A stretch of DNA of 64,000 bases from Caulobacteraceae bacterium (GTDB taxonomy: Bacteria; Pseudomonadota; Alphaproteobacteria; Caulobacterales; Caulobacteraceae), in assembly GCA_947476555.1 (NCBI GenBank), contig CANJRI010000003.1, positions 22,536 through 86,535 on the forward strand, given 5' to 3'. This document shows, piece by piece, positions 11,212-54,579 of the stretch; within the stretch, counting starts at the first letter, position 1, and every line of letters starts with the position of its first letter. A program made the position numbers and the translations under genes. The notes beneath the pieces are model-generated. The model did not search any database. It was not told where the DNA came from and saw only the letters and a program-made list of their open reading frames with translations.

Positions 11212-11355
11212 TTAGCGCCGCTCGCGCAGGATCGCGAGGGCCAGACGCGGCCGGATCAGGAACAGCCCGGCCCACACCACGCGGGCGAGGGTCCGGGTCA
11301 GACGACGGCGGGGACGAAACTCGGTCTCGAAGAGGTTGGCGTAGTCGGCGGTCAT
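11212..11355 (-). CDS. Small basic protein of 47 residues, function unknown
   Basis: This short reading frame (MTADYANLFETEFRPRRRL...) sits between the peptidase and the WYL regulator. It ends LAILRERR with one hydrophobic stretch VVWAGLFLI. A strong GGGAGAG ribosome site lies about 8 nt before the ATG. The Arg-rich middle plus a short hydrophobic stretch resembles the small DUF-type membrane-associated proteins of alphaproteobacteria, but I do not recognise a family. The downstream peptidase start is only 10 bp away, so co-transcription is likely. Confidence 0.55.
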   Translation of the reverse strand: MTADYANLFETEFRPRRRLTRTLARVVWAGLFLIRPRLALAILRERR

Positions 11356-11384: not shown

Positions 11385-12383
11385 CTAGGCGCTACCTGCG
11401 ACAGAATCGGACGCAAGGGCCCGGCGGGCGACCTCCAGCTCCGCCGCCATCATGTCCCGCAGCGCCTGCGGCGCCACGATCCGGACCTTGTCGCCCCAGG
11501 TGAACAGGTGCCACGCCAGCTCGCGCATGCCGCTGGCCCGGAAACGGACGAGAACCCCGCCGCCGGCCTGCGCCTCCAGCGTCTGCCCGGTGTGGAAACG
11601 CCAACGCAGGGCGTCCTCAGCCCCTTCCGGGGTCACGGCCAGCACCACGTCATGGGTGTCGTCCTGATAGATGCCGAAGCTCTCGTCGGCATAGGCCTGC
11701 AGGGAGAAATCCTCCGGACGGGCGGCGGCGCGGTCCAGGATCTCCACGTCCAGCATGCGGTCCAGCCGCCAGTTGCGGGGGCCGGCCTTGCCTTCCGCCG
11801 CCACCAGGTAGTTCGACCGCCCGAACAGGATCCCGTAGGGCGTGACCTCGCGGGTCCGGCCGGGATTGGAGCCCCCCTGATAGCGGAAGCGCAGGGCGCG
11901 CATCGCCTTCACCGCTTCGCGGATGCTGGCCAGGATGGCGTCTTCCTCGAACGGCCGGGGGCCGGCCTGAACGGCGATGGCCTCGGCCTGCAACAGGGCC
12001 TCCAGGTCGGGGGCCAGCTTGCGGCGGGCGGCCGCCCGCGTGGCCGACAGCACCTTCTGCTCCAGCGAGCGCAGGGCCTGGGCCCGGCCCTTGGCCCCCT
12101 CCTTGGTCAGCATATCCGCGGCGGCCGACAGGGCCGCCAGCTCCTCGGCGGTGGGCGCCTGGAAGAGGCCATCCAAGCCCGCCGGAATGCGGAACCGGCG
12201 GGTCGGCGGGTCGTCCACCTCCTCCATCTGCGGGAACATCTCACGGACCGCGCCGCGCATGCGCTCGGCCGTCCGCCGGCCAACGCCCATCCGATCGGCC
12301 ATCTCGTCGAGGGTCAGCCCCTCGGCGTTGGAGGCGAGGAGCCGGGCCATCTCCAGCAGTCGGCCGGCCTTTTCGTGGCGCAT
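11385..12383 (-). CDS. WYL-domain transcriptional regulator with N-terminal HTH (YafY type)
   Basis: Of the 332 residues, 1-60 form a DeoR-like winged helix-turn-helix (LTLDEMADRMGVGRRTAERM), followed by a linker and a WYL ligand-binding domain at about 155-240 (core MRALRFRYQG, then RTREVTPYGILFGRSNYLVA and RNWRLDRMLDVEIL) and a C-terminal extension domain. WYL regulators sense nucleic acid or nucleotide-like ligands, often in DNA-damage or phage responses. It is divergent from the 92-residue gene that starts 74 bp away, an arrangement that would allow shared control, but no operator was identified. Confidence 0.85.
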   Translation of the reverse strand: MRHEKAGRLLEMARLLASNAEGLTLDEMADRMGVGRRTAERMRGAVREMFPQMEEVDDPPTRRFRIPAGLDGLFQAPTAEELAALSAAADMLTKEGAKGRAQALRSLEQKVLSATRAAARRKLAPDLEALLQAEAIAVQAGPRPFEEDAILASIREAVKAMRALRFRYQGGSNPGRTREVTPYGILFGRSNYLVAAEGKAGPRNWRLDRMLDVEILDRAAARPEDFSLQAYADESFGIYQDDTHDVVLAVTPEGAEDALRWRFHTGQTLEAQAGGGVLVRFRASGMRELAWHLFTWGDKVRIVAPQALRDMMAAELEVARRALASDSVAGSA

Positions 12384-12457
12384 TTCCAGCTACGTCCGTT
12401 TCTGTCGCAGCGCCCATTGAGAAGGGAGTCACAGCAACCCGCAACGGAGTTCTTCCG

Positions 12458-12736
12458 ATGGCCCAATACCGCAGCTTCCAGCCCCGCCCCGTCCGCCCCT
12501 GGCCGGCCCTGCGTCCCCTGCCCCTCCTGCCCGGCTCGGTGGTCGACGCGGTGCTGCGCTTCCACGATCAGGCCCTCGACCAGGGCGGCGGCCGCACTCT
12601 GCTGCGCCTGTCCGACGCCGCGCTCGAGCGGCCGGAAGTCAAGCAAGCCCTGGGCGATCTGACCCGTAGAGCCGCCGGTGTCTCGATCCTCTGGAACGAG
12701 CGCGAGGGCGAGATCATCCGGGTGCTGGCGGCCTAG
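12458..12736 (+). CDS. Hypothetical protein, 92 residues
   Basis: A small protein with a Pro/Arg-rich N terminus (RPVRPWPALRPLPLLPGS) and a predicted alpha/beta C-terminal part (VVDAVLRFHDQALDQGGGRT, VSILWNEREGEIIRVLAA). No family is recognised. It diverges from the WYL regulator and is followed directly by a short CTTCTCCC-type repeat. Codon usage is like its neighbours, which supports a real gene. Confidence 0.6.
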   Translation: MAQYRSFQPRPVRPWPALRPLPLLPGSVVDAVLRFHDQALDQGGGRTLLRLSDAALERPEVKQALGDLTRRAAGVSILWNEREGEIIRVLAA

Positions 12737-34534: not shown

Positions 34535-35086
34535 CTAAGCGGCCCTTGGACTGTTGGTAAGTGGGCCCGCGCCAAGCGCTCTTAGGCGGCCGTAGACGAA
34601 TGGCGCGCCGATAACGAGATAGAGCAGCGCAAGAAAGGTACCGATGGCGGCGTGTGATGGAGCGCCGCTCTCAACCTCGGCGTCGCAAACCGTGCGTGCT
34701 GCGCACCAAGCGAGCATGAAGAACCCAACGACCATTGCAAAGATGAGGAACGGCTCGACAGCGGCCAGCCATTCCGGTCCGAGGGGCGCTAGTGGGGGGA
34801 CTAGCCAAGCGATAGCGAAGACGAGGACCGTCGCCAGAGCGACGGCGAGCGCTAGTGGGCGGGCCCTGGCAAGTCGGCGCGGACCTCTCGTAGGGTCATG
34901 GCCCGCAGCGAAAGCCAAAGCCCGCCAAATCCACGTCACGTGAAGCAGCGTGCACACAAATATCGCGGCCATCGCCAGGGAGAGGGCGTCGATACCCCCG
35001 GTGTTGACGGCGTAGGCCGGCACGAAGAAGCCGAGCGCGATGTAGATGGGTATGAATACCAACGGTCGTAGCGGCAATCGTCGCAT
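34535..35086 (-). CDS. Four-helix integral membrane protein, hypothetical
   Basis: 183 residues with about five hydrophobic segments (LVFIPIYIALGFFVPAYAV, LAMAAIFVCTLLHVTWIWRALAFAA, ALAVALATVLVFAIAWLVPP, PFLIFAMVVGFFMLAWCAAR, AIGTFLALLYLVIGAPFVYG). GGAGG lies 7 nt before the ATG at 35086, which decides the start over a longer upstream frame. No family is recognised. Confidence 0.65.
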   Translation of the reverse strand: MRRLPLRPLVFIPIYIALGFFVPAYAVNTGGIDALSLAMAAIFVCTLLHVTWIWRALAFAAGHDPTRGPRRLARARPLALAVALATVLVFAIAWLVPPLAPLGPEWLAAVEPFLIFAMVVGFFMLAWCAARTVCDAEVESGAPSHAAIGTFLALLYLVIGAPFVYGRLRALGAGPLTNSPRAA

Positions 35087-35165
35087 CGGTAGTCCTCCCA
35101 CAAGCCAGACTGACGGGCGATTGGCGCATCGACGAGAATGCCTCTGCCGGGAGGGCTCTTCCAAC

Positions 35166-35192
35166 GACCGCAATGGGTGGGAAGCGGACATC
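35166..35192. repeat. Dispersed GTCCGC/CCCATTGC repeat copy
   Basis: GACCGCAATGGGTGGGAAGC, then GGACATC; found between the membrane protein gene and the response regulator. Confidence 0.65.
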
Positions 35193-35250
35193 AGCATCTC
35201 GATCGTCGCGGCCCAAAGGCGTGGAAGCCGAACTCAGGCGAATTGGCCGA

Positions 35251-35637
35251 TCAGCCCGCCGCGTCCACGTTCTCGTTCCGGGGCTGCACAAGCGCTACGA
35301 CCGTCTCGGCGAATTCGTCGGGAGCGAACGGTTTTTCAATCAGCAACGCCCCGTCCACCCCATAGCGTTTCACCGGCTCAGGGTTGCCGGTTATGTACAC
35401 CACCTTCAGGCTCGGATTGATTTCACGCGCTTTGCGAGCCAGATCGAAGCCGGTTACGCCAACGCCAAGATTTATGTCGGTGACCAGGACGGCCATTTCC
35501 CTCGCCTCCTGCTCAAGGAGCGCTAGGGCCTCCTGGTCATCCAGCGCCGCCTTCACTTGCACCCCTCGCGACTGGAGCGCCTCCTGGATGATCTCCAGAA
35601 TCTCCGGCTCGTCGTCCACGATGAGTACTTGGGGCAT
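35251..35637 (-). CDS. Single-domain response regulator (CheY-like)
   Basis: 128 residues, only a receiver domain. The acidic pair is in LIVDDEPE, the phospho-acceptor Asp is in VTDINLG (about 53), the Thr is in YITGNPE and the Lys is in EKPFAPDEF. It has no output domain, so it acts by protein contact or as a phosphate sink. A cognate kinase is not adjacent; the hybrid kinase at 56290 is 20 kb away. GGAAA precedes the ATG. Confidence 0.9.
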   Translation of the reverse strand: MPQVLIVDDEPEILEIIQEALQSRGVQVKAALDDQEALALLEQEAREMAVLVTDINLGVGVTGFDLARKAREINPSLKVVYITGNPEPVKRYGVDGALLIEKPFAPDEFAETVVALVQPRNENVDAAG

Positions 35638-35778
35638 CGCATTTCCGCGCAGGCAGCATCAAGCGCCCGAGTTCTGGAGTGTCGGACTTCCGACATAACG
35701 TGCCATTTCCGCTCAGGTTCCCGGCCAGAAACCAGGCGCGGGTGGTTGTTGGAACGCCTACAGAACTGCCGTTATCCC

Positions 35779-35852
35779 CAAAATGAGTGGGCTCTCTCAT
35801 AAGCGGACCTTCCCAACGTCGCCCAAGGGTCGAAAGCCGACGTTCGCCGACC
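35779..35852. repeat. Degenerate GTCCGC-type repeat upstream of the SOS-type gene
   Basis: AAAATGAGTGGGCTC... AAGCGGACCTTCC is a divergent copy of the family, followed by an inverted ACGTTCGCCGACC-type tail. The rest of the 260-bp gap (35638-35899) shows only the promoter of the next gene. Confidence 0.45.
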
Positions 35853-35863
35853 CACCAAAAACC

Positions 35864-35899
35864 TTGACTCCCGCCCCGCTCTATGTTCTCGTTTTGTTC
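35864..35899 (+). promoter_or_regulatory. TTGAC promoter with a perfect LexA (SOS) box
   Basis: A -35 like TTGACT (35864-35869), 17-bp spacer and -10 region TCTCGT (35887-35892) are overlapped by GTTC-TCGTTTT-GTTC (35885-35899), an exact alphaproteobacterial LexA box GTTC-N7-GTTC. The box ends directly at the GTG start of the next gene. The same layout precedes the paralogue near 54543. Confidence 0.75.
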
Positions 35900-36445
35900 G
35901 TGTCCAACGCCGCCCCAGACCGCAACAGCGGAATCCTCCGCGAGCTGGCCGAGCTTGGCCTCTCGGTGGCGCGCGATCTGCAGGCCAGGGTGGCGGCGGC
36001 CGAAGACGACGCCACAGCCAACCAGCTCGCCCGCAGCTTCGAGCGAGTCTCGCGCTCCGTCCGCCATTGCCTGGCCCTGGAGGCCCGCCTGCTGGACGGC
36101 TTCCGCCGGCGCCTCGTCGAGGATCGCGAGCAGGTGGCCGAGGGGCGCCGCGCCGAGATAAGCCAACATCGCCACCGCGTCCGCGAGGCGATGGAGCATT
36201 TCGCCTTTACGGACCCCGAGGTCGGCGACACCGAGGTCGATTACATCCTGGAGCGGGCCGGCGCGTGGCTGGAGCGCGAGGTCGAGGCCCCGGACTTCCT
36301 CGACCTGCCCGTCGAGCAGCACATCGCCCGCCTGCGCCGCGCCCTGGGTCGCGACGGCGCCGCCGAGGAGGAAGAGGCCGAGGGCGACCCCGTTCCCGAA
36401 ACGGGGCCCAGCCTCTCGGACCTCCCCTGGCGAAGCTCGGCCTGA
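35900..36445 (+). CDS. SOS-type gene A: helical protein of unknown function (paralogue of 53986-54543)
   Basis: 181 residues, cytosolic and mostly helical: N-terminal LRELAELGLSVARDLQARVAAAEDD, the block LARSFERVSRSVRHCLAL, then EVGDTEVDYILERAGAWLERE and a C-terminal acidic tail ending SLSDLPWRSSA. About 48 of the first 60 residues are identical to the product of 53986-54543, and the tail SLxDLPWR is shared. I place the start at GTG 35900, the position matching the paralogue's ATG. A LexA box ends at the preceding base, so the mRNA is predicted to be leaderless and LexA-repressed. No domain family is recognised. Confidence 0.8.
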   Translation: MSNAAPDRNSGILRELAELGLSVARDLQARVAAAEDDATANQLARSFERVSRSVRHCLALEARLLDGFRRRLVEDREQVAEGRRAEISQHRHRVREAMEHFAFTDPEVGDTEVDYILERAGAWLEREVEAPDFLDLPVEQHIARLRRALGRDGAAEEEEAEGDPVPETGPSLSDLPWRSSA

Positions 36446-36450
36446 AGGAC

Positions 36451-36510
36451 CCTTCTCCCCTCGTGGGAGAAGGTGGACGCGAAGTGGCCGGATGAGGGGT
36501 CGCGCTCCCC
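36451..36510. repeat. CTTCTCCC/GGGAGAAGG repeat with GGATGAGGGG tail
   Basis: CCTTCTCCCCTCGTGGGAGA, then AGG and, 10 nt later, GGATGAGGGGTCGCG. It matches the left half of the element at 5814-5962. Confidence 0.7.
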
Positions 36511-36568
36511 CATCGACCCCGCCCAAGCTCCACTCTAGAACTCTCCCGACACTGCTTCGGAGAGCCCG

Positions 36569-37777
36569 TTGACGCGCGCCCTGATCCTCGCGGCCCTGAT
36601 CGCCGCCACCCCCCTGCCCGCCCTGGCCCAGGCCATCTCGCCAGCGGCCCGCGCCGCGCACCGCGACGCCGTCGTCATGGACAGCCATTTCGACACCCCG
36701 GCCCTGCTCGGCCGGCCGGGCTGGAGCATACTTGACCGTCACAGCCCCGAGATGGACGGCAGCCAGGTGGATTACCCGCGCATGGTCGAGGGCGGGGTGG
36801 ACGGGGGCTTCTTCGCGGTGTTCACCCCTCAGGGGCCGCGGACGCCGGAGGGCTATGCGGCGGCGCGGGACTTCGCGCTCTACCGGCTGACCGAGATCCG
36901 CGAGATGGCGGCGCGGCACAGCAAGGAATTCGCCCTCACCCTGACCGCCGACGAGGCCTTGGCGGCGGCGAAGGCGGGACGGAAATTCGTGATCCCGTCG
37001 ATGGAGAACAGCTATCCGGTGGGCAAGGACCTCAGCCTGATGCGGACCTTCCATCGACTGGGCGTGCGGGTGATGAGCCCGGCGCACCAGACCAACAACG
37101 ACCTGGCGGACAGCTCCACCGACCCCAAGGGGACCGAGTGGGGCGGCCTCTCGCCGCTGGGACGCCAATGGGTGGAGGAGGCCAACCGCCTGGGCGTGTT
37201 GATCGACGGCTCACACGCCACCGACCTCGCGGCCGAGCAAATGGCCGCCTATTCCCGCACGCCGATCATCATGACCCACTCGGGGGTGAAGGCGGTGTTC
37301 GACCACCCGCGCAACATCTCCGACCTGTTGCTCCGCTTCATCGCCCGGCGCGGCGGGGTGGTGCAGATCAACGTCTTCTCCAGCTACATGGTCGAGGGCG
37401 CGCCCGATCCCGCGCGAGCGGCGGCCCTGGCCGAGCTCAACCGCAAATATCCCGGCCCGCGCAATCAGGCCCGGCAGGTCGCCTATATCGCCGAGCGCGA
37501 GGCGATCGACCGGCGGCTGCCCGCGGCCCGCGCCAACATCGACCAGGTCATGGAGCACATCTTCCACGCCATCACCGTAGGCGGCATCGACGCCGTGGGC
37601 CTCTCGGGCGACTTCGACGGCGGCGGCGGGGTGGAGGGCCTCAACGACGTCACCGCCTATCCGATGGTGACGCAGAAGCTGATGGACGCCGGCTACACCA
37701 AGGAGGACGTGGCGAAATTCTGGGGCGGAAACGCCCTGCGTGTGCTGCGCCAGGCGCAGGAGGCTGCGGCCAAGTAA
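36569..37777 (+). CDS. Exported dipeptidase (membrane dipeptidase, peptidase family M19)
   Basis: 402 residues with a signal peptide (TRALILAALIAATPLPALAQA). Zinc ligands of the renal dipeptidase family are visible: HFD in MDSHFDTPAL, Glu in SMENSYP, His in DGSHATD and His in MTHSGVKAVFDHPRN, with Asp in GLSGDFDGGGG. Members cleave dipeptides, including D-amino acid or dehydro-dipeptides. The start is TTG at 36569 with GGAGAG about 5 nt upstream; no better start keeps the signal peptide. A periplasmic or lipid-anchored location is inferred. Confidence 0.9.
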   Translation: MTRALILAALIAATPLPALAQAISPAARAAHRDAVVMDSHFDTPALLGRPGWSILDRHSPEMDGSQVDYPRMVEGGVDGGFFAVFTPQGPRTPEGYAAARDFALYRLTEIREMAARHSKEFALTLTADEALAAAKAGRKFVIPSMENSYPVGKDLSLMRTFHRLGVRVMSPAHQTNNDLADSSTDPKGTEWGGLSPLGRQWVEEANRLGVLIDGSHATDLAAEQMAAYSRTPIIMTHSGVKAVFDHPRNISDLLLRFIARRGGVVQINVFSSYMVEGAPDPARAAALAELNRKYPGPRNQARQVAYIAEREAIDRRLPAARANIDQVMEHIFHAITVGGIDAVGLSGDFDGGGGVEGLNDVTAYPMVTQKLMDAGYTKEDVAKFWGGNALRVLRQAQEAAAK

Positions 37778-53872: not shown

Positions 53873-53890
53873 GCGTTTTCGGACATCACT

Positions 53891-53979
53891 CCGCTCGTCC
53901 CCGCGAAGGCGAGGATCCAAGCGGGGGTTGCGACTAGCTCGGATTCGGCTTGGGTCCCCGCCTGCGCGGGGATGAGCGG
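53891..53979. repeat. Inverted repeat of the GTCCCCGC/GCGGGGATGAGCGG family
   Basis: Two 32-33 bp arms: CCGCTCGTCCCCGCGAAGG... and ...CCTGCGCGGGGATGAGCGG, with AAGC/GCTT inner ends, around a short AT-richer core. It lies between two convergent genes. A relative lies at 63829-63860. Confidence 0.75.
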
Positions 53980-53985
53980 GGTTGT

Positions 53986-54543
53986 TCAGGCCGAGCTTTC
54001 GTGGCGCCAGGGTAGATCGTCGAGGCTGTGCCCCTCGCCAGGCCCGTCCTCGTTGTCGGCCTCGGCCTCCTCATCGTCGGCGGCCCCGGTACGGCCCAGG
54101 GCGACGCGAAGGCGGTCGATATGCTGTTCGGGCGTGAGGTCCAGGAAGGCCGGCCGCTCGGTCTCGCGCTCCAGCCATTCGCCGGCCCGGCGCAGGACGT
54201 AGTCCACCTCGCTGTCGCCGACCTCCGGATCCTCGTCCGCGTACCGCTCTATGGCCTCGCGGACCCGGGCGCGGTGCTGGGCGACCACGGCGCGCCGCGC
54301 CTCGGCGACCTGCTCGCGCGCCTCGACGACGCGGCGGCGCTCGCCGTCCTTCAGGCGGACGATCAGAGCCAGACAGTGACGGACCGAACGGGAGACCCGC
54401 TCGAAGCTGCGGGCGAGGTTGTTCGCGACCGCGTCATCCTCGGCGGCGGCGCTGCGGGCGGCGAGGTCGCGCGCCATCGCCAGGCCGAGCTCGGCCAGCT
54501 CCCGGAGCATTTCGCTGTCACGATCTGCGGCTTCGGCGGACAT
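53986..54543 (-). CDS. SOS-type gene B: helical protein of unknown function (paralogue of 35900-36445)
   Basis: 185 residues: LRELAELGLAMARDLAARSAAAEDD, LARSFERVSRSVRHCLAL, DSEVDYVLRRAGEWLERE, LTPEQHIDRLRVALG and an acidic tail ending SLDDLPWRHESSA. It matches the product of 35900-36445 along its length. ATG 54543 directly follows a perfect LexA box, so the gene is likely LexA-controlled with a leaderless mRNA. Alternative upstream starts would place the box inside the gene. Function unknown. Confidence 0.8.
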   Translation of the reverse strand: MSAEAADRDSEMLRELAELGLAMARDLAARSAAAEDDAVANNLARSFERVSRSVRHCLALIVRLKDGERRRVVEAREQVAEARRAVVAQHRARVREAIERYADEDPEVGDSEVDYVLRRAGEWLERETERPAFLDLTPEQHIDRLRVALGRTGAADDEEAEADNEDGPGEGHSLDDLPWRHESSA

Positions 54544-54579
54544 GAACAAAACAGGAACATGTTCACGCTGCAGGGTCAA
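54544..54579 (-). promoter_or_regulatory. TTGAC promoter with a perfect LexA (SOS) box
   Basis: On the minus strand: TTGACC (54579-54574), 17-bp spacer, TCCTGT (54556-54551), and GTTC-CTGTTTT-GTTC (54558-54544), ending against the ATG at 54543. Same geometry as the promoter at 35864-35899. Confidence 0.75.

Follow-up and report, generated by a model that had tools for sequence, protein, structure and literature searches.

A multicopy gene family of Caulobacteraceae carrying LexA-type or DriD-type promoters, with a predicted helical product

Two paralogs with operators touching their start codons

The stretch of DNA analysed here, 64,000 nucleotides of a Caulobacteraceae contig (the window), carries two related genes, A and B, each of which begins directly at a GTTC-N7-GTTC repeat, together with an ortholog of the regulator gene driD. 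The features discussed below are the following, with the basis of each call in brackets.

35864..35869, + strand: -35-like TTGACT of gene A (sequence; common family layout)
35885..35899, + strand: LexA-type operator GTTCTCGTTTTGTTC of gene A, touching the start codon (pattern scan, family comparison)
35900..36445, + strand: gene A, GTG start, 181 aa, candidate for leaderless translation, predicted helical protein (ORF, family alignment, fold model)
36428..36442, + strand: coding sequence of WRSSA, the conserved C-terminal tip of gene A (family tip pattern)
53986..54543, - strand: paralog B, 185 aa from an ATG start, sharing 72% identity with gene A (similarity search with gene A)
54544..54558, - strand: LexA-type operator GTTCCTGTTTTGTTC of paralog B, touching the start (pattern scan)
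54574..54579, - strand: -35-like TTGACC of paralog B (36 nt from the start codon, the distance also seen in gene A)
11385..12383, - strand: driD ortholog, WYL activator (the genome has no other PF13280 match; phmmer hits to WYL chains in the PDB)
12391..12409, + strand: DriD-type box TACGTCCGTTTCTGTCGCA, divergent from driD (pattern scan)

A preliminary description of gene A, made from the letters of the DNA, had placed TTGACT at 35864 and a perfect GTTC-N7-GTTC at 35885-35899 directly against a GTG codon, and all of these elements are found there. The gene runs from the GTG at 35900 to a TGA stop at 36443-36445; 15 nt separate TTGACT from the operator, whose N7, TCGTTTT, is T-rich. Given a 17-nt spacer, the -10 hexamer is TCTCGT (35887-35892), which lies inside the box and agrees with TATAAT at 3 of 6 positions. 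A sigma-70 consensus scan with stricter rules yields no promoter over 35640-36600, so that family comparison, not the consensus, is the basis of the promoter call. The frame of gene A stays open in the 5' direction as far as an ATG at 35783, and an automatic caller may therefore place the start at that codon; the conserved first residue of the family and the layout of paralog B support the start at 35900. An Rfam search over 35000-37000 gave no match. Directly 3' of both genes (36450-36505 and about 53880-53985) lie intergenic palindromic repeats that occur in high copy in the genus. A further GTTC-N7-GTTC with a GC-rich spacer, on the minus strand at 35752-35766 and 114 nt 5' of a response regulator gene, looks like a chance occurrence.

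Control of gene A by LexA, proposed in the preliminary description, gains support from three sides. The genome encodes lexA (a PF01726 match over the cut-off) with a box of its own 39 nt upstream; paralog B, at a distance of 18 kb within the window, repeats the layout, its ATG immediately preceded by a perfect box; and the box is kept in 53 of 85 family members. GTTC-N7-GTTC, the published Caulobacter LexA motif, occurs five times in the window where 1.65 occurrences would be expected, and none of 100 shuffles reaches five. Genome-wide there are 68 occurrences against 23 of the reversed pattern, several of the 68, GC-rich ones, probably arising by chance. Boxes with T-rich spacers like that of gene A precede imuA-, ssb-, comM- and SPL-like (radical SAM) genes of the same genome, and a radC-like ORF carries the box GTTCCTTAAATGTTC; all of these gene names were assigned by eye.

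LexA and DriD boxes across the family

By sequence comparison, gene A and paralog B are members of an undescribed multicopy family restricted to Caulobacteraceae. BLAST among 199 genomes of this bacterial family returned 111 matches in 24 of them, up to 13 per genome, in Phenylobacterium and some other Caulobacteraceae; separately collected named loci are mostly Phenylobacterium. Searches at the level of the order (299 genomes) and the class (two sets of 385 each) gave no strong match outside Caulobacteraceae except one degraded copy, an absence that is soft because only the best 8-14 candidates per genome were scored. The degraded relative (L154, from genome G680 in a different family of the class) has in-frame stops and GTTC words upstream. 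No description of the gene family was found in the main texts of the open papers searched. The preliminary view of gene A as one SOS gene thus stands as far as the LexA box and the want of a recognised domain are concerned, but the gene is not single: it belongs to a family of many copies, part of which is wired to DriD, and this makes the link to DNA damage stronger than gene A alone would.

Ninety of the 111 matches were read, and 85 remained for classification after five had been set aside, two (L101, L113) for which the script gave no start and three (L099, L105, L125) with edge or doubtful starts. Among the five, L099 has a DriD-like site, L113 is cut by a contig end, and L101, L105 and L125 show no visible box; the upstream regions of L101 and L105 have AAGTATATAA in common. 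Alignments A1, A4, A5 and A6 contain paralog B in a version lacking the four C-terminal residues.

A LexA box is present in 53 of the 85 copies (one of them, L024, assigned by hand), a DriD-type site in 28, and neither in four. The exact GTTC-N7-GTTC lies within 70 nt upstream of 52 of the 85, where shuffled sequences average 0.1 with a maximum of 2, and it abuts the start codon exactly in 34. The LexA-type promoters have a full TTGAC (5/5) in 36 of 51 cases, most often 15 nt before GTTC (31/51).

The second promoter class has TACGWCCGNTTCTGNCGYA-like sites, which match the DriD box. DriD is the WYL activator of the SOS-independent damage response of Caulobacter, and its box consensus, ATACGAC-N7-GTCGTAT, has been published together with the didA, driD and bapE promoter DNAs (PMC12340889). 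When these published C. crescentus sites alone served as queries for mismatch scoring, all 28 DriD-type copies lay within 6 mismatches of the 19-bp didA site (range 2 to 6) and 22 within 4, a threshold passed by 5 of 17,000 shuffled upstream regions; no LexA-type copy, gene A and paralog B included, was closer than 8. The bapE site discriminates less well, with 4-9 mismatches in the DriD class and at least 6 in the LexA class. Family copies contributed in part to the pattern with which the genomes were scanned, but this pattern also matches beside driD in several genomes. Of the DriD regulon of C. crescentus (didA, bapE, CCNA_03891) the 28 copies thus share a didA-like site with a set spacing to the start, whereas gene A and paralog B have LexA boxes and the family products are unlike the small membrane protein DidA.

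LexA-type copies occur in 17 of the 24 family-bearing genomes and DriD-type copies in eight, four genomes having both. Among 20 separate named loci, 18 are readable, 17 of LexA type and one of DriD type, at least six of which repeat loci or genomes of the first set. Among named carriers, Phenylobacterium deserti YIM 73061 has LexA-type copies and P. kunshanense BUT-10 a DriD-type copy. Orthologs of driD were found in 22 of the 24 genomes, and a DriD match is present in all eight with DriD-type copies, in one of them split over two overlapping frames (G006, contig C36), which may reflect a frameshift or a sequencing error. Three of the copies with neither box, L018, L019 and L016 of another genus, have TTGCA-N3-TGCAA-like or TTAG-N3-CTAA palindromes near the -10, and a third regulator may act on them.

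The driD ortholog of the window (phmmer E about 1e-140 to the PDB WYL chains 8tp8 and 9pfq) would be the regulator of the other, DriD-type arm of the family; we claim no role for it at gene A. The box at 12391-12409 stands divergent from the gene, the arrangement reported for C. crescentus driD (PMC12340889). Several smaller observations concern this locus. A second DriD-type box lies at 11397-11415 (- strand) in the 3' end of driD, and paired DriD-type sites also flank driD in three other genomes (G074, G169, G113). Just 3' of this second box is a 47-aa ORF with one hydrophobic stretch (11212-11355, - strand), perhaps didA-like, and 3' of the divergent box is a 92-aa ORF (12458-12736, + strand) in the position of C. 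crescentus CCNA_03891.

Gene A is likely translated leaderless: with a 17-nt spacer and the -10 within the box, its transcription start would coincide with its start codon. Shine-Dalgarno-like words (AGGA, GGAG or GAGG within the last 20 nt) are found in none of the 53 LexA-type copies and in one of the 28 DriD-type copies, and in 26 of these 28 the start codon lies 21-25 nt from the box, a spacing that, judged by the published DriD layout, would leave them almost without a leader as well. In C. crescentus, 375 leaderless mRNAs have been reported, and Shine-Dalgarno sites are absent from 75.4% of genes (PMC4117421); gene A would resemble those mRNAs in pairing the absence of such a site with a spacing that puts the predicted transcript start on the start codon. 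Two arrangements with a leader keep a real, if minor, chance. TATGTT (35882-35887) might serve as the -10 and leave a leader of about 6 nt, as the conservation of the AT before GTTC among LexA-type promoters would allow (T in 48, A in 36 of 51), or translation might start upstream in the frame that is open to the ATG at 35783. Comparison of gene A with paralog B, however, reveals no conserved coding stretch 5' of their starts, and the DriD-type copies likewise have their start codon 21-25 nt from their own box, both of which favour the leaderless arrangement.

How are the two promoter classes distributed over the family? On a quick tree of 85 proteins and 185 columns the LexA and DriD labels need six changes, at least four of them forced by strongly supported branches, the count being approximate because many branches are weak and some are long. 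Shuffled labels need about 24 (DriD label), and the labels are thus inherited, yet have switched several times. Selection for damage-induced expression would leave just this pattern of repeated switching between LexA and DriD with few copies (4 of 85) outside both. The repeated wiring of the family to two unrelated damage regulators is, in our view, strong comparative evidence of damage-induced expression, which we infer for gene A too; and since nearly every readable copy has one of the two damage switches, the product very probably acts at times of DNA breakage.

Dispersal of the copies

A different account of the promoters is that promoter and ORF together constitute a selfish or self-dispersing unit that has spread within genomes, the damage promoters timing its expression to break repair, when copying is possible. 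We regard this as rather unlikely. The copy numbers (up to 13 BLAST matches per genome) would fit it, as would the fact that near-identical copies of one genome often have just promoter and ORF in common and little else: L003 and L026 share 92% identity between -46 and the stop codon, L015 and L119 have a common stretch from -47 to +8, and ten near-identical copies of genome G108 match from the DriD box on while their upstream flanks are largely unrelated (pairwise identity falls from 1.00 in the box to 0.28 between -100 and -81). Moreover, the conserved neighbour gene of paralog B, found in most of 101 genomes of the genus, has no B aligned beside it there. Yet gene conversion between old paralogs gives the same homology limits, and some pairs share flanks as far as -417 or +235. 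Among 80 members there is no transposase or recombinase domain above chance (one IS481 match, E 0.007, is at chance level). No terminal inverted repeats were seen around A or B, no signal of target-site duplication emerged from 84 units with approximate ends, and no family member was found in phages, plasmids or viral contigs with one query each. L003 of P. deserti and L076 of G074 have the same conserved gene downstream but are only 31% identical, each closely resembling paralogs of its own genome. Such dissimilar copies at one site in two species speak for gene conversion between dispersed paralogs, which we take as the sober reading.

A right unit boundary fixed at the stop codon was rejected, as some pairs extend beyond it. 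No empty insertion site was found at base level for A, B or one P. deserti copy, the relatives being too distant. Of the ten G108 copies (L208-L216, L218), nine lie at the beginning of a contig and one at the end, so that assembly breaks inside the copies lead to an underestimate of copy number in that genome. A reading that combines dispersal with a damage function, namely a self-dispersing, fast-diversifying single-gene family that is kept on damage promoters by either LexA repression or DriD activation as its product acts at broken DNA, possibly aiding its own copying by break repair, strikes us as speculative and improbable.

The predicted protein and its part in the damage response

The expectation of a 181-residue helical product agrees with a confident AlphaFold2 model of gene A (80 family rows, mean pLDDT 89), with predicted helices at residues 6-33, 37-104, 110-127 and 138-148; the model of a DriD-type member has a similar plan (pLDDT 86.7). 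The product also proves to be, as described initially, without a recognised domain: Pfam and NCBIfam searches for gene A and for 80 members, and PHROGs and PADLOC searches for A and B, returned nothing significant. The best PDB sequence-profile match has an E-value of 0.62, which is not significant, and PDB fold searches gave no significant match. Against encapsulated ferritin-like and other solved helical hairpins the best Z is about 9, within the chance range for long helices, and matches to a ferritin-like hairpin, an SMC coiled coil, BAR and toxin-segment folds were rejected on the same ground. The exonuclease VII large subunit (PF02601) was likewise discarded, with 13.6 bits for gene A against a cut-off of 35.9 and no match in 80 members.

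Beyond residue 100 the family proteins have a tail with a median net charge of -13, against +1 for the core, and the tails cannot be aligned. They end, however, in a recurrent tip, [DNSRG][ST][AGS], in 58 of 88 members where 0.6 would be expected from composition if positions were independent; after removal of the set-aside rows the pattern holds in 56 of 85, and 29 lack it. SSA and DTG dominate. The tip is encoded by many synonymous codons, which indicates selection on the protein and was the ground for rejecting a C-terminal DNA end signal. In SSB-type proteins, which serve here as no more than an analogy, an OB fold is joined to an acidic tail whose C-terminal tip is conserved. The gene A family resembles them in its acidic tail and conserved tip, but the tip is SSA or DTG rather than the SSB tip, and the core is helical with no OB fold. 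Gene A is thus predicted to encode a soluble protein, a helical hairpin followed by an acidic tail that ends in the conserved tip. Tail and tip together suggest a docking or turnover signal. An adaptor in the damage response is consequently our best guess for the family protein, a tentative one, drawn from a predicted fold without a significant match and a tip of three residues absent from 29 of 85 members.

Could the product instead be a damage-induced division inhibitor in the manner of SidA or DidA, with targets differing between copies? Both sidA and didA are among the LexA- and DriD-controlled genes of Caulobacter, but the literature describes both of their products as small transmembrane proteins (PMC4211646), and the family is without a membrane segment: one of 85 members has a hydropathy stretch over 1.6, and the best 19-residue value of gene A is 0.72. 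This makes a division inhibitor a poor prospect. A genuine box bound by a regulator other than LexA is very unlikely, for although Caulobacter has LexA-like repressors such as RogA, the bound promoter in the RogA work has GGAA-N4-TTCC repeats (PMC9632790), whereas the gene A motif is that published for Caulobacter LexA and precedes lexA in this genome.

With the Caulobacter SOS regulon, then, gene A has in common a GTTC-N7-GTTC operator that overlaps the promoter, in a genome whose lexA and imuA-, ssb- and radC-like genes are boxed too. It departs from that regulon in belonging to a multicopy, lineage-restricted family, in a box set against the start codon, and in relatives that swap LexA for DriD. 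The operator, the layout, the family, its double wiring and the presence of lexA and driD are matters of observation. We put at roughly 0.75 the probability of the reading that joins them: gene A would be LexA-repressed and damage-induced and its family wired to LexA or DriD, with the product guessed, at clearly lower confidence, to be a soluble adaptor or scaffold. LexA on GTTC-N7-GTTC would cover the -10 region and hold gene A off, and DNA damage would induce the gene by lifting this hold; other members would answer to one of the group's two known damage regulators, LexA and DriD. In the protein, the helical hairpin core would bind or oligomerize, and the acidic, flexible tail would present the conserved tip to a partner.

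LexA is a repressor and DriD an unrelated activator, and a family rewired between the two points to a selected function in the damage response with no need of homology. In its copies, promoter exchange and leaderless genes abutted by their operators could be studied as natural experiments. For the Caulobacteraceae, the gene A family may provide a new handle on SOS genes without known function and on the DriD arm, of which few targets are known.
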